Source of the DNA: a virus
Direction: 5' to 3' (one strand)
Virus record (IMG/VR): IMGVR_UViG_3300025293_001613
Location: 1-25,261 of that record
Length of the DNA stretch: 25,261 nucleotides
Below, one piece after another: positions 1 to 19,526 of the stretch (position 1 is its first letter; every line of letters starts with the position of its first letter). The translations under genes were made by a program, and so were the position numbers. The notes below the pieces were generated by a model. It worked only from the letters and a program-made list of their open reading frames with translations. It was not told the DNA's origin and did no database searches.

Positions 1-801
1 TCACGGGCTTCCTTCTTGTGCTTTTTTCTCCTCGCAGTTTTGGTTCCAGATGATCAGCTCTTTTGCGGGCGTTGGTTTGCCGTTTGCTGATGAGTATTTG
101 ATGCCGACTTCCTGACATCTGAAGCCCTGAAAAACCCGTCTTATATCGGGGTGGTCGTTGATGCTGATGACTACCGATCCCTGTGCTTCTCGCGCCATTT
201 GCGCCATGCGCTCGTACTGATCGAACTCGAACGGGACGCCGTAGCCGGCGGTTTGCCAGTACGGTGGGTCGAGGTAGAACAGCGTGTGGGGCCGGTCGTA
301 GCGTTCGATCAGTTTGTCCCACTGCATTTGCTCGATGTAAGCGGATGCAAGGCGCAGGTGGGCCTGGCTGAGATCCTCTTCCAGTCGCAAAAGATTGAAT
401 CTGGGCCTTGAGGTCGTGGCGGTTCCGAAATTGTGACTGGCGACACTGCCTCCGAACCCTAGTTTTTGCAGGTAGAAGAATCGGGCGGCGCGCTGGATAT
501 CGGTCAGGGTTTCGCCCCGGCTCATCTTTTCCCATTCGTAGATCTGACGGCTGGCTAAGGCCCATTTAAACTGCCTTAAAAACTCCTCTAAGTGGTGTTT
601 AACGACGCGGTAAAGGTTCACTAGGTCGCCGTTGATGTCGTTGATCACTTCCACTTTTGCGGGCTCTTTGGCCCAAAATATGGCAGCACCACCGGCAAAA
701 GGTTCGACGTAGCAGGTGTGCTTTGGGAATCGCTTCATGATCTCGTTAGAGATGCGTTTTTTACCGCCAATCCAAGGGATAATCGGTTTGCAATGTGTCA
801 T
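1..801 (-). CDS. dam: DNA N6-adenine methyltransferase, Dam/D12 class
   Basis: This 266-aa protein transfers a methyl group from S-adenosylmethionine to adenine N6 in DNA. Visible motifs are PWIGGKK (residues 9-15), the SAM-binding PFAGGAA (34-40), the NDIN segment (55-58) and the catalytic DPPY (178-181), in the order of the D12 class, and the length fits stand-alone Dam enzymes. I chose the ATG at 801 because it begins just before the family's PWIGGK block and has an AGAGG-like Shine-Dalgarno. The frame stays open to 1242, but that extension is Arg/Pro-rich and overlaps the upstream gene. The gene is separated from the tail genes by a structured spacer and looks less GC-rich than its neighbours, suggesting an accessory (moron-like) cargo gene. 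Likely role by inference: protecting phage DNA from host restriction or altering regulation. Target sequence cannot be read from the protein. Confidence 0.93.
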   Translation of the reverse strand: MTHCKPIIPWIGGKKRISNEIMKRFPKHTCYVEPFAGGAAIFWAKEPAKVEVINDINGDLVNLYRVVKHHLEEFLRQFKWALASRQIYEWEKMSRGETLTDIQRAARFFYLQKLGFGGSVASHNFGTATTSRPRFNLLRLEEDLSQAHLRLASAYIEQMQWDKLIERYDRPHTLFYLDPPYWQTAGYGVPFEFDQYERMAQMAREAQGSVVISINDHPDIRRVFQGFRCQEVGIKYSSANGKPTPAKELIIWNQNCEEKKAQEGSP

Positions 802-953
802 GTGGGCCTCTGTTTTGATAGGCTCCGCCCGCTGCGTGCACGCGGCAGGGGGCCTTGCTGGGCTCACAGTCTCAAGCACTGTGGGTCTAGGTCCGGTCTG
901 TGCTACAACACTGACCGGTCGCCTCCTTCTCCTTTCTTCCTTTATTCCTTCCT
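802..953. other. Structured intergenic spacer before dam
   Basis: This 152-bp spacer has no convincing ORF. It holds three successive dyad symmetries: a perfect 10-bp palindrome GCGTGCACGC (834-843); a hairpin with CACAGT/ACTGTG arms and a 7-nt loop (865-883); and a hairpin with CCGGTC/GACCGG arms plus an inner GTG/CAC stem across one T-T mismatch (893-918). On the minus strand the part near 919-953 is almost pure purine, with repeated AAGGA-type words. None of the hairpins is followed by a U tract on the minus strand, so a classical terminator is not supported. Confidence 0.5.
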
Positions 954-1280
954 TTACGGCTGCCATTCGACCACGCGGATTTGAACCTGTGTCCAGGCTA
1001 TGCCGCCGGGGTTTGCGGTGTCGTAGATGGTCAGAAATCCGGTGTGTCGGCCTGGGGTCAGGCCGCGATTGCCGGGTTTGAGTCGTACTCGGGTGGCACC
1101 GGATGTGAGCGTGATGTCTGTATCTGTGTCGGTGTCGAACACAACTGGCTCGCCGCTGACCGCCGCGCTGCCCGGTAGCCAGAAGACGGCGCGGGTGACG
1201 GCGTTGGCTTCGATGGGGCTGCTGTCTGTGCGCAGCTCCCACTCGATCCAGTTCTCGCGATCCAGATAGACGGTGCTCAC
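954..1280 (-). CDS. Small beta-rich tail-module protein, unknown function
   Basis: This 108-aa protein is not recognised with confidence. It is rich in alternating hydrophobic and polar residues with many Thr, Val and Gly, and contains a short Asp-Thr repeat (DTDTDTD). Its pattern resembles a single immunoglobulin-like beta-sandwich domain, a common add-on in phage tail and capsid proteins. There is no signal peptide, membrane segment or catalytic motif. The ATG at 1280 overlaps the stop of the upstream gene as ATGA, which implies translational coupling and supports this start. It is the last gene of the tail block before the spacer in front of dam. A virion accessory or receptor-contact role is inference from position only. 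Confidence 0.75.
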   Translation of the reverse strand: MSTVYLDRENWIEWELRTDSSPIEANAVTRAVFWLPGSAAVSGEPVVFDTDTDTDITLTSGATRVRLKPGNRGLTPGRHTGFLTIYDTANPGGIAWTQVQIRVVEWQP

Positions 1281-3522: not shown

Positions 3523-4506
3523 TTACTGCCCTGAGATCTCGATGAAGTCGAGCCCGTAGCCCGGCCCGCGTGACTCGTTGTAACCCTTCAGGCCAAACCC
3601 GGTGCCTGCCGACGGCCCGATCGCCTCATCGGCGAGCAGGTAGGAGCCTGCCGTTACGGTGATGCGGCCAGGCTCAACCGCGATTACGATCGGCGCAGAT
3701 ACCTCGCCATCCACCAGGTCCGGCATAGCCGTTTCGGTTAGCAACCTGGTGCTGCCTTTAACGCGCTCGTAAAGGCGCATTACCTGGCCTGTAAACAGCA
3801 CTGAAATATGGTTGTCGTCGTCGTCAAAGCCCAGCAGCAGCGCCATGTAACTCGCTGGTTTCGATCCCACAGTCTTGTCCAGCCCGGCCACGGCTAACGC
3901 GGTTTGCACCGTGTAGGCGTCAGGCAGATCGAAACCGGCGATGTGAGCTGAACCGCTGTACTTGCGCGTGTAGCGCACGGCTCCGTCTGCCGCCACGAAA
4001 TACGGCCCGGCCTCCCAGTGCTGGCCGCTGCTCGCGGTGCGACCGTCCAGGGGCGATGGCTCTGATTCGGCGAATTCGTCTGCGAATAGCACAGGGCCGG
4101 CGTCGTCGATTTCGCAGGTGGGTCTGCACCCGAGCTGATCGATTGCGGTGGGCGCTTCGTGCCATATCACGGTGACGCTATCAGACTCTCGGGACCGCAT
4201 ATCGGCCTGGTCGATAGCGACCACTGTGCAGCGATATTCGCCGGGGCCTGGCAGCATCGGCTTCAGCGGCAGGCTGTAATCCCCGCTTGCATTGAGTTCG
4301 CCGGGCGTCCAGTCAGTTGAATTTTCTCCGCATTTTATGCGGTAACTCTTTATGTCGATCGGTGCCAATGCGCTGCCATCGGTCCGGGCCAGTGGTGGGG
4401 CGAAATACAGATGTGAATCGCTGCGCAGGTCAGCTTCGGTAGTGGTCTGGGCACTGGCGCAGGACCACGCAAGGCTAACCAGAATAAACAGGATCACGCG
4501 TTTCAT
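3523..4506 (-). CDS. Exported lectin-like protein in the tail module
   Basis: This 327-aa protein has an N-terminal Sec signal peptide: MKR, a hydrophobic core (residues 4-13) and a small-residue cleavage site ASA|Q after residue 19. Cys16 is in a poor lipobox context (AWSC), so signal peptidase I is likelier than lipoprotein processing. Residues about 35-115 look like a fibronectin-III-type domain with Cys59 and Cys93; Cys127 and Cys131 follow; residues about 138-327 look like a concanavalin-like lectin domain. The start ATG overlaps the preceding stop as TAATG. The frame is open upstream to 4950, but that part shadows the SGNH gene. A signal peptide is unusual in a tail operon. The protein may be exported to the periplasm or surface, for example to block superinfection or help attachment, rather than packaged. 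Function is inference. Confidence 0.83.
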   Translation of the reverse strand: MKRVILFILVSLAWSCASAQTTTEADLRSDSHLYFAPPLARTDGSALAPIDIKSYRIKCGENSTDWTPGELNASGDYSLPLKPMLPGPGEYRCTVVAIDQADMRSRESDSVTVIWHEAPTAIDQLGCRPTCEIDDAGPVLFADEFAESEPSPLDGRTASSGQHWEAGPYFVAADGAVRYTRKYSGSAHIAGFDLPDAYTVQTALAVAGLDKTVGSKPASYMALLLGFDDDDNHISVLFTGQVMRLYERVKGSTRLLTETAMPDLVDGEVSAPIVIAVEPGRITVTAGSYLLADEAIGPSAGTGFGLKGYNESRGPGYGLDFIEISGQ

Positions 4507-17478: not shown

Positions 17479-17970
17479 TCAGGCGGCCGTGACGGCGTTG
17501 CGCAGGAAACGGGTAGCAATGTCTAGAATATCCTGCTCGTCGTCCCTGCCGATGCCGAGGAACGGGCGGGCGGGGATATCTCCCCAGGGAATTGGGCCGC
17601 CGCGCTTGGTTTTGCCGAATGCGCCCCTGGCGGCACCAAACTGGTGAGTGGGGGCGTAGACTTTGTTGGAGCCGATTTCGGCGAAGTCGTCGCCTGCATC
17701 GCTGGTGATGTTGTTGGCCATCTGGGTGCTGGCCTGGAGGATTTTGCCGCCCCGGCGCTTGGGGTTGCGCAGTAGCGTGGTTTCTCTGAGCGGTGCCCAG
17801 GCTTCGCCGGTGGTTGGGTCTTGCTCCTGGCTGAACGCTGCCGCCGTGGCGGTTTCGAGTACCTGGGCGATTTCTTCCATGGCATCTCTTGGCCGCTCGA
17901 TACGGCGGACCAGTTCACGCAGGGAGTCGACCACTTCGGCATCGTTGGCGTTGATGTGGATGATGGACAT
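17479..17970 (-). CDS. G: Phage virion morphogenesis protein G (Mu gp31 / tail completion family)
   Basis: This 163-aa protein belongs to the phage virion morphogenesis family, needed for head-tail completion. Family marks are the N-terminal helix with SLRELVRRIERPRDAMEEIA, the DPTTGEAWAPLRETT segment, the basic loop PKRRGGKILQ, the YAPTHQFGA motif and the C-terminal IPARPFLGIGRDDEQDI. Its place directly after the MuF gene agrees with Mu G. The ATG at 17970 has AAGGA 8 nt upstream. Unlike its neighbours it is not overlapping: 131 bp holding the plus-strand tRNA-like element separates it from F, and the 371-bp gap follows it. Confidence 0.93.
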   Translation of the reverse strand: MSIIHINANDAEVVDSLRELVRRIERPRDAMEEIAQVLETATAAAFSQEQDPTTGEAWAPLRETTLLRNPKRRGGKILQASTQMANNITSDAGDDFAEIGSNKVYAPTHQFGAARGAFGKTKRGGPIPWGDIPARPFLGIGRDDEQDILDIATRFLRNAVTAA

Positions 17971-17999
17971 TGAAAAATCCTTGCTTTTGTGGTGATATT
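17970..17999 (+). promoter_or_regulatory. Candidate sigma70 promoter for the tRNA-like element
   Basis: TTGAAA (17970-17975, 5 of 6 matches to -35) and GATATT (17994-17999, 4 of 6 to -10) are 18 bp apart on the plus strand. Transcription would start near 18006, three bases before the acceptor stem of the tRNA-like element. The fit is moderate, and such matches occur by chance. Confidence 0.35.
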
Positions 18000-18008
18000 G
18001 GGGTTCCG

Positions 18009-18095
18009 GCAGGTGTAAGTCTCAACTGGTAGAGCCTATGTCGCTGCGCTTATGTGCAGCGGTATGTGTTGCGGGTTCGAGTCCCGCCACCTGCT
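18009..18095 (+). tRNA. tRNA-like element with abnormal anticodon arm
   Basis: Plus-strand 87-nt cloverleaf, antisense to the operon. The acceptor GCAGGTG (18009-18015) pairs perfectly with CACCTGC (18088-18094). A D-arm CTC/GAG encloses AACTGGTA (18024-18031), which keeps the conserved GG. The T-arm GCGGG-TTCGAGT-CCCGC (18071-18087) is canonical. The anticodon region instead folds into one long hairpin (18037-18066, up to 13 pairs including G-U). It offers an 8-nt loop GCUUAUGU on a 6-bp stem or a smaller loop, but no 7-nt loop on a paired stem. The linker before the D-arm is 5 nt instead of 2, and no CCA is encoded. It is a decayed tRNA or a derived tRNA-like RNA; amino acid identity cannot be assigned. 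Confidence 0.65.
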
Positions 18096-18101
18096 GGGCT
18101 C

Positions 18102-19526
18102 TCAATCCCTCGGGTAAACTCTTTCGTAGATCCCTGCATTTGTAAGTCTTGCGGACGTCGTCCAATAGGCGCTAATCAGCTTGTCCACCACTGACGATTG
18201 GCTCTTTTCCATTCGCTCTTCGGGGCCGACCACAGCAACGGCAACTTCGTCTGCATTCCGCTCCAGCACGTACAGCAACCGACCATTTCGCTTATCCCGG
18301 TAGACGCTCTCAGCATCAGCCATAAGCCTGGGCAGAGCCAGATACACTTCACGACTTACTGCAGCACCTTCTCGGATATGCCTGTCACTATCCAGATGCT
18401 CCACTTGGCTTTCGCTGACCACAATCAGCCGCGAAGGCATCAGCCCTGTTTTCTCAAAGTAAGCCGCGCCCAGCTCCTCTGGCATGAACATAACCGGCTG
18501 CCAGTTTTTCTGGCTCAGGCCGGTTTGCGCCAGGCTCTGTTGCAGCTCTCGCTGGCGTTCACGGCTGGGGTTCTGGGCGAGCTGTTCGCCGATATTCCGG
18601 CGAGTTTCCAGTTTGTACAGGGCGCTGCCCATCCACTGCTCAAATACGGCCTGCCGGGCTTCTGAATTGTTAAGGCTGTTGATGACCTGGCTGCGCAGGC
18701 CCGTGTGAGTCACCCGGCCTATGGACCGGGCAATGGCCGCATCCACGCCAAACGCAGCCGAACCGGGATTATGGTCCCAGCCGATATCGGGGATCATAAC
18801 GCTGCCGTCTGGCAGGCGCACCTGGCTGTGCTGCACGGTGATCACTTCGCCGGTCTGGTAGTCGATGCCGGCTTCGCGCTCTACGGTCTCTATCCAGTCC
18901 GCGCCGTTTTCTACAGTCAGACCCTCGCGCTCCAGGTTGCGGTCGGTGAGGTTTCTCACGCGGCAGCGGCAGCCCCAGCCGTTGGGGGGGTAGATCACGG
19001 CCCAGACTGGGTCGTCCCAGCGAAACACTTTCCCATGCAACAACCGATGCAGGGGCCGGGTCTCGGTGTCCATAACGGCCAGGTATTGCCAGTAAGGCCG
19101 GAACTCCACCGCAGCCAGCTGCCGGCGGTAGCGGCCTACGTTGTAGGCGGTGGACAGGTTGGTTCGGTAGATGTTCTTCAGCCGCCAGGGGCTGCCCAGC
19201 TGCACTTCGTAGTCGTTGCCCTGGGCGTCGGTGCGGGTTTCTTTGCCCCACCAGCCGGCTTTTTGCAGGCGCGGGGTCACTTCTTTAACGAAGGTTTCTT
19301 CGGTGGTGCCTTCGGCCAGGGCTTTATCCAAGCCGTTCCGAATCACTTCCAGCACGTCCATGCTGGCTGCTTTTGCCACGGTAAATGCCCTGGCGTGCGC
19401 CCGGCCCTCCATCTCCTGCCATTGGTCCGTGATCTGGTAGCCCTTGCTGCGGAAGTAAGCCACAGCGTCCTTGGGTTCCATGGCCATTGCGGCCCGCAGC
19501 TGAGCGGTTTTCTCACTGCTGGGCAT
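18102..19526 (-). CDS. F: Head morphogenesis protein, MuF family, with candidate C-terminal nuclease-like domain
   Basis: This 474-aa protein is the Mu gp30/SPP1 gp7-type minor head protein, probably ejected or placed inside the capsid by the portal. The MuF core covers about 40-200: KNIYRTNLSTAYNVGRYRR (117-135), PYWQYLAVMDTETRP (144-158), the HGKVF segment and the PPNGWGCRCRVR zinc-like motif (180-191). The C-terminal portion (about 345-474) is a separate alpha/beta segment with His377, His383, ALPRLMADAE, LLYVLERNADEVAVAVVG and a terminal SAYWTT. This resembles the phage-linked barnase/EndoU/colicin-like nuclease (PBECR) domains known to be fused to MuF. Catalysis is unproven. The ATG at 19526 overlaps the portal stop by 14 bases. 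Confidence 0.9.
   Translation of the reverse strand: MPSSEKTAQLRAAMAMEPKDAVAYFRSKGYQITDQWQEMEGRAHARAFTVAKAASMDVLEVIRNGLDKALAEGTTEETFVKEVTPRLQKAGWWGKETRTDAQGNDYEVQLGSPWRLKNIYRTNLSTAYNVGRYRRQLAAVEFRPYWQYLAVMDTETRPLHRLLHGKVFRWDDPVWAVIYPPNGWGCRCRVRNLTDRNLEREGLTVENGADWIETVEREAGIDYQTGEVITVQHSQVRLPDGSVMIPDIGWDHNPGSAAFGVDAAIARSIGRVTHTGLRSQVINSLNNSEARQAVFEQWMGSALYKLETRRNIGEQLAQNPSRERQRELQQSLAQTGLSQKNWQPVMFMPEELGAAYFEKTGLMPSRLIVVSESQVEHLDSDRHIREGAAVSREVYLALPRLMADAESVYRDKRNGRLLYVLERNADEVAVAVVGPEERMEKSQSSVVDKLISAYWTTSARLTNAGIYERVYPRD

Follow-up and report, generated by a model that had tools for sequence, protein, structure and literature searches.

Type III toxin-antitoxin systems (ToxIN, CptIN and TenpIN) pair an RNA with an endoribonuclease, the type of the RNA being matched to that of the toxin. 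Among phage head proteins, MuF proteins with C-terminal toxins and neighboring immunity open reading frames (ORFs) have been described mainly from phages of Firmicutes, and the C-terminal extensions of MuF proteins in Proteobacteria were left without known domains (Jamet et al. 2017, PMC5576092). The DNA analyzed here is a 25,261-base virus fragment from IMG/VR (IMGVR_UViG_3300025293_001613; “the window” below always refers to this whole stretch), in which a Mu-like phage has its late genes on the minus strand and a plus-strand element, predicted to be a tRNA-like RNA, occupies the 131-base-pair (bp) gap separating gene F (18102-19526) and gene G (17479-17970). As in the MuF polymorphic toxins described so far (PMC5576092), a head-protein MuF domain is followed by a variable C-terminal domain, the phages are temperate and the putative partner is adjacent; the immunity candidates of those systems, however, are small downstream ORFs, whereas the candidate here is an antisense structured RNA of Proteobacteria-type transposable phages. 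In the reading that we consider probable, F acts as a ribonuclease toxin carried in the virion, and the antisense RNA serves as its immunity partner, much like a type III antitoxin.

A tRNA-like RNA lacking the anticodon arm

The whole predicted structured part of the element (18006-18097, plus strand) is enclosed by a 10-bp closing (acceptor) stem, whose 5' strand (CCGGCAGGTG, 18006-18015) and 3' strand (CACCTGCTGG, 18088-18097) show compensatory changes across homologues. An earlier note on this DNA had described a perfect 7-bp acceptor stem; its pairing stands, as GCAGGTG/CACCTGC (18009-18015/18088-18094) are the inner 7 bp, whereas its length does not, the full stem being longer than the 7 bp of a tRNA. 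The rest of that description was confirmed in sequence and coordinates: a D-arm (CTC-AACTGGTA-GAG, 18021-18034) with the conserved GG, a canonical T-arm (GCGGG-TTCGAGT-CCCGC, 18071-18087) and, at the position of the anticodon arm, one long hairpin of 13 bp with a loop of 4 nucleotides (nt; 18037-18066), all on the plus strand inside the F-G gap and antisense to the late operon. The hairpin and the T-arm are separated by a 4-nt variable region (TGTT, 18067-18070), which is GTAT-, TGAT- or GTGTT-like in relatives.

With tRNA (RF00005) and tRNA-Sec (RF01852) the element shares the D-loop GG, a T[TG]C[AG]ANY T-loop (TTCRANY in the tRNA criteria) on a T-stem, an acceptor coaxial with the T-arm and a variable region of 4-5 nt. 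It differs from them in having no 7-nt anticodon loop on a 5-bp stem, the window and its relatives carrying closed hairpins instead, and in acceptors of 8-11 bp rather than 7 bp with a CCA end, no CCA being encoded in the window. The window copy also stays below the thresholds of the usual detection tools: ARAGORN found no tRNA in the window and Rfam gave no match there at the gathering threshold (the RF00005 cut-off was missed), and the homologue in relative L024 is called a tRNA in the sensitive mode of Rfam, at 35.7 bits (cut-off 29). Folding of the window element is far stronger than that of its shuffles (z -4.6), and the cloverleaf is the fold of most relatives. Throughout the family the third hairpin has short closing loops and no conserved sequence, and therefore does not decode. 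A nucleotide search of phage records with the RNA returned only short matches, to tRNA genes, the exact T-arm pattern had zero matches in IMG/VR, and covariance-model scans of genomes were swamped by true tRNAs.

Protein scans with F and G yielded 118 unique F-G junctions, a set that was later extended, and about 30 distinct relatives of the element share its F-G position and its antisense orientation. A strict tRNA descriptor (acceptor, GG-containing D-arm and T-arm) matched the antisense strand of 14/118 junctions and the sense strand of 0/118, against a background of 10/11,274 windows (~0.1%) and 6/5,900 shuffles; its members include the window, L002, L021, L022, L024, L041, L107, L108, L115, L122 and L142/L144, as well as two Pasteurella phages, Pmp9 and AFS-2018a, whose records leave the stretch unannotated. 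Looser members (L042, the L043 group, L132, L134, L274, L295 and the AFS group) were assigned by eye, and a covariance model built from three members recovers, in every case on the antisense strand of the slot, Pmp9, L024, L142, L134, L042 and L107. None of 369 gammaproteobacterial genomes contains the exact AFS-core pattern, which argues that this is not a common chromosomal RNA.

Because MAFFT misaligned the tRNA-like classes when they were combined, the divergent set was aligned manually by structure and MAFFT was used for the close set only. Among ten divergent members, 70/70 acceptor pairs are standard and 6/7 positions display several pair types. In 14 closer members, 98.9% of 264 stem cells are paired (79.5% in shuffles), both sides have changed at 11 pairs, the covariation score is 0.527 versus 0.148, and shifting the partner by a single column reduces pairing to 44%. 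Members of the AFS group keep invariant D- and T-loop cores and vary in their stems, over a range of neighboring G protein identity from 99% to 37%; between AFS-2018a and L257, the sole alignable DNA around the slot is 63 nt of the RNA. Counts of G-U versus A-C in the closing stems (33 vs 17) favor the antisense strand only moderately. The element is one member of a conserved RNA family with a structure under selection. The alignment of homologous F-G junctions proposed in the earlier note has, in other words, brought out covariation, and the acceptor and T stems have not decayed at random. That the RNA is a decaying relic of a captured host tRNA gene, which the same note had listed among the possible meanings, could draw on the fact that tRNA-Gly is among the real tRNAs closest to the three-member covariance model (which scores up to 46 bits against genuine bacterial tRNAs); compensatory evolution this strong, loops invariant across distant phages and a retained promoter lead us to reject it. 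The F-G gap of L295 holds a tRNA-like RNA with a Ser/Leu-type D-loop (CGAGCGGTTAAAG), which suggests an origin by capture from a different tRNA.

The promoter proposed earlier (17970-17999, plus strand) is of the sigma70 type, with a -35 box TTGAAA (17970-17975), an 18-nt spacer and a -10 box GATATT (17994-17999), and would place the start at about 18005-18007, i.e., where the closing stem begins. Comparison across 49 nonredundant junctions backs it: antisense sigma70 promoter scores exceed those of shuffles (p 2.7e-12) and of the sense strand (p 1.2e-10), on which sigma70 promoters are not enriched, and a -10 box lies 5-9 nt upstream of the best closing stem at 23/49 junctions (5.4 expected), so that the RNA should start with its closing stem. 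This placement holds for the other RNA folds at the slot too, and the element can be regarded as a predicted transcription unit.

A promoter of its own on the strand opposite the late operon is also what would be expected of an antisense or transcription-interference regulator limiting F and G, structured for stability and comparable to lambda OOP and to the C4 antisense RNA (PMC5320573, PMC11143913), both of which are phage precedents. What is conserved, however, are the tRNA stems and loops and not complementarity to a target; such a regulator does not need covarying stems, nor does it predict the joint loss with a protein motif described below. Complementarity elsewhere in three phages was not above chance, which also leaves C4-like pairing to the phage's own mRNA unsupported. 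We regard this explanation as unlikely, and the plain antisense regulator of the F-G mRNA named in the earlier note fits poorly with the tRNA architecture, the tracking of the F C-terminus and the lack of unusual complementarity elsewhere in the element's own phage.

The RNA and the C-terminal domain of F

Gene F (18102-19526, minus strand; 474 amino acids (aa); Pfam PF04233, E 3.4e-26; PHROG 220) encodes a minor head protein whose MuF domain spans residues 61-190 and, with the portal and terminase genes adjoining it, is a MuF head protein of the packaging module. Residues 250-474 (18102-18779, minus strand) form a C-terminal domain that is predicted to be a nuclease toxin domain from alignments, the Pfam matches of relatives and an AlphaFold (AF2) model. 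It contains the motif HLDSDRH (residues 377-383; 18378-18398, minus strand), which is intact where the RNA is present and lost in RNA-less relatives. In the RNA-bearing set the variable C-terminal domain, which is exchanged as a module (L041/L044, below), is of the MuF_C, PBECR2 or PBECR3 type, all three being nuclease families that Pfam lists for phage MuF proteins; the window is placed by homology only. Pfam finds MuF_C (PF18819) in 12/27 aligned members of the tRNA-like set (best E 9e-7), PBECR3 in L036, L037, L046, L084, L112, L143 and L158, and PBECR2 in L015, L016, L061, L103, L104, L131, L141, RcapMu and RR1-B, PBECR standing for a phage-Barnase-EndoU-ColicinE5/D-RelE-like nuclease. The window's domain aligns with those of L021 and L022 at 41-43% identity. 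The best structural rows of its AF2 model (pLDDT 90.2, pTM 0.86) include the RNase toxins BrnT, YoeB, YafQ, RelE and HigB, each covering residues 116-217, so that a weak resemblance to RelE/BrnT RNase toxins is suggested by modeling. When the C-terminal profile was searched against the sequences of solved structures, nothing meaningful was returned.

It is this domain that the RNA accompanies. With RNA classes labeled from hand-made sequence patterns, the class of the nearest neighbor agreed in 63/84 cases when neighbors were defined by the F C-terminus, 52/84 by the F N-terminus and 48/84 by G, and the RNA class follows the C-terminal domain of F, not its N-terminus or G. L041 and L044 share 86-92% identical DNA in the N-terminal part of F and in G, and yet their F C-termini and RNAs are wholly different, those of L041 resembling the ones in L142/L144; the domain and the RNA were exchanged together as a module.

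Losses point in the same direction. The domain is absent from 10/23 F proteins at gapless junctions and from 0/43 at gapped ones (p 5e-6, an optimistic value for related phages), and where the domain is kept at gapless junctions, its H-x-x-S-x-[KR]-H-type motif is gone (Mu, D3112, Shewanella MuM16-1, L004, L019/L020, L023, L086, L093 and L111). The RNA and the motif were lost together within the sister pairs L021/L023 and L107-L108/L111; in L095, sister of L024, the first His is lost and the gap holds other sequence; and the same joint loss can be seen by eye in H71 (PBECR2) and L286/L290 (another domain type). The C-terminus of F in phage Mu itself (L072) is a degenerate MuF_C (E 1.2e-4, below the Pfam cut-off), with neither the conserved motif nor an F-G gap.

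This tracking and the joint losses argue against the antisense regulator and equally against a general tRNA decoy, i.e., an RNA unrelated to F that would protect the phage from host tRNA-nuclease defenses of the PrrC, PARIS, Septu or retron types. The decoy has in its favor the tRNA-like elbow, the absent anticodon and the finding that phage tRNAs can neutralize tRNA-cutting defenses (Septu and retron-Eco7 work, PMC13096335); that RNA class and presence follow the F C-terminal domain and its motif, and that the same slot is filled in other phages by RNAs that are not tRNA-like, leaves it with about as small a chance as the antisense regulator.

Proposed immunity function and other RNAs of the slot

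The reading we prefer, an immunity RNA for the toxin domain of F, may be spelled out as follows. The RNA would be the product of a small gene with a promoter of its own, which the host sigma70 polymerase would transcribe in the direction opposite to the late operon; production of the RNA would thereby be independent of late transcription. F would be a virion-borne polymorphic toxin of the MuF type, its C-terminal domain a predicted BECR/RelE-like ribonuclease, and the antisense RNA the cognate immunity RNA (antitoxin) of that domain, guarding the lysogen or producing cell against F up to the time of its packaging, and shielding lysogens from incoming particles as well. The tRNA-like class retains those parts of a tRNA that proteins grip, namely the acceptor stack and the D/T elbow, and may imitate a tRNA substrate while resisting cleavage: since a closed hairpin replaces the anticodon arm, the RNA could bind a domain that cuts tRNA and yet stay intact, and might inhibit that domain by such direct binding. 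That tRNA is the substrate of the F domain is a guess; by analogy, an anticodon-less tRNA mimic is the form of inhibitor to be expected for a tRNase of the colicin D/E5 kind. The tRNA-mimic option of the earlier note, in which anticodon nucleases were mentioned, sits well with the BECR/RelE-type nuclease domain predicted next door.

Several points weigh against this reading, apart from the hand-made class labels. For the C-terminal domain of the window's F itself Pfam gives no direct match, Foldseek with the model of that domain gave nothing significant, and the RelE/BrnT-like structural rows are low (Z 2.2-3.6). The nearest-neighbor energy model slightly favors a rod (-47.4) over the cloverleaf (-44.5) for the window copy. 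An automated motif table, although giving a Fisher p of 3.4e-5, is approximate because it mixes C-terminal domain types and treats long gaps crudely, misfiling RNA-holding ones (L124, L220), and relatedness between the phages, for which phylogeny was not corrected, makes such p-values optimistic. Finally, the RNA is kept despite a damaged domain in L274 (motif deleted) and L132 (frameshifted).

The pairing of the RNA with the F C-terminal domain would be the same if the RNA, rather than inhibiting the nuclease, served it as a cofactor or guide, activating or positioning it, or were packaged/ejected with F. A separate promoter of constitutive type and the antisense orientation better suit an antidote, and we give this alternative a slighter chance than either the decoy or the regulator.

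In other transposable phages the F-G slot is occupied by clearly different structured RNAs that are not tRNA-like. RcapMu, a phage of Rhodobacter capsulatus, and B3, a phage of P. aeruginosa PAO1, are among those with RNA classes other than that of the window. The 307-bp gap of L123/L124 contains two tandem GGCAAAGTCTCCC-class RNAs, each with its own TATACT or TATATT -10 box. In L084 (Mannheimia phage 3927AP2, 1651-1800), an RNA of different fold with a 12-bp closing stem (TACGGTTATTAG/CTAATAACCGTA) has a strong TTGATT-17-TATATT promoter and adjoins a PBECR3-type F C-terminus. The hairpin loop CGCTTATGTG is common to the third hairpin of the window and the F-G gaps of L036, L050 and L064, whose RNA class is otherwise different from that of the window, and CTGCGCTTATGTGCAG is identical in L036 and L064. 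Outside the F-G junction, the Mu-like contig L112 carries a match to Rfam sRNA-Xcc1 (4179-4266, minus strand; RF02221, 74.5 bits).

Taken together, these loci suggest that nucleases make up the C-terminal extensions of F in transposable phages and that RNA serves there as the immunity factor. The broader proposition, that each type of virion-borne MuF nuclease in transposable phages has its own antisense structured RNA as immunity factor, the one for the MuF_C type being an uncleavable anticodon-less tRNA mimic, is one toward which we lean only slightly. As for the surroundings in the window, the downstream neighbor in the late operon is gene G (17479-17970, minus strand; 163 aa; PHROG 26, tail completion/Neck1), and a gene for a D12-class adenine DNA methyltransferase (1-1242, minus strand; Pfam E 2e-29) lies downstream of the tail genes, at the very edge of the window.

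Comparison with known systems

No earlier description of an F-G RNA in Mu-like phages was found in the literature searched, and this would be, as far as that literature goes, the first case in which RNA confers immunity to a polymorphic toxin carried by virions. If true, it would provide a function both for the C-terminal part of the Mu F protein family, so far unexplained, and for diverse unannotated phage RNAs sharing one gene slot, with Mu itself appearing derived, having lost the RNA as well as the motif. The F-RNA pairs are short and modular, and the tRNA mimic would be a natural design against a tRNA-cutting enzyme.

Among small structured phage RNAs, the C4 antisense RNA of P1/P7 is an RNase P substrate (PMC5320573, PMC11143913) and as such a precedent for tRNA-like recognition of a phage RNA. 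Unlike C4 and the P4 CI RNA, the element starts at its own closing stem, tracks a nuclease domain and has no antisense target that could be found, and the Rfam C4 model has no match in the window or the other loci scanned. The tRNAs of phages T5 and T6 (PMC13096335) are similar in being tRNA-type RNAs proposed to protect from a tRNA nuclease; they are full tRNAs directed against host defenses, whereas the element lacks an anticodon and probably has a protein of the phage itself as its counterpart.

Type III toxin-antitoxin systems are a parallel in the (here predicted) pairing of an RNA with an endoribonuclease and the matching of RNA type to toxin type. Their RNA antitoxin consists of tandem repeats that precede the toxin within one transcript; the present RNA departs from them in being single and non-repeated, with no tandem-repeat pseudoknot, in lying on the opposite strand under its own promoter, in its proposed tRNA mimicry and in having its putative toxin fused to a virion protein, so the F-RNA pair would, by analogy, be type III-like in its working and not a member of that type by its anatomy.
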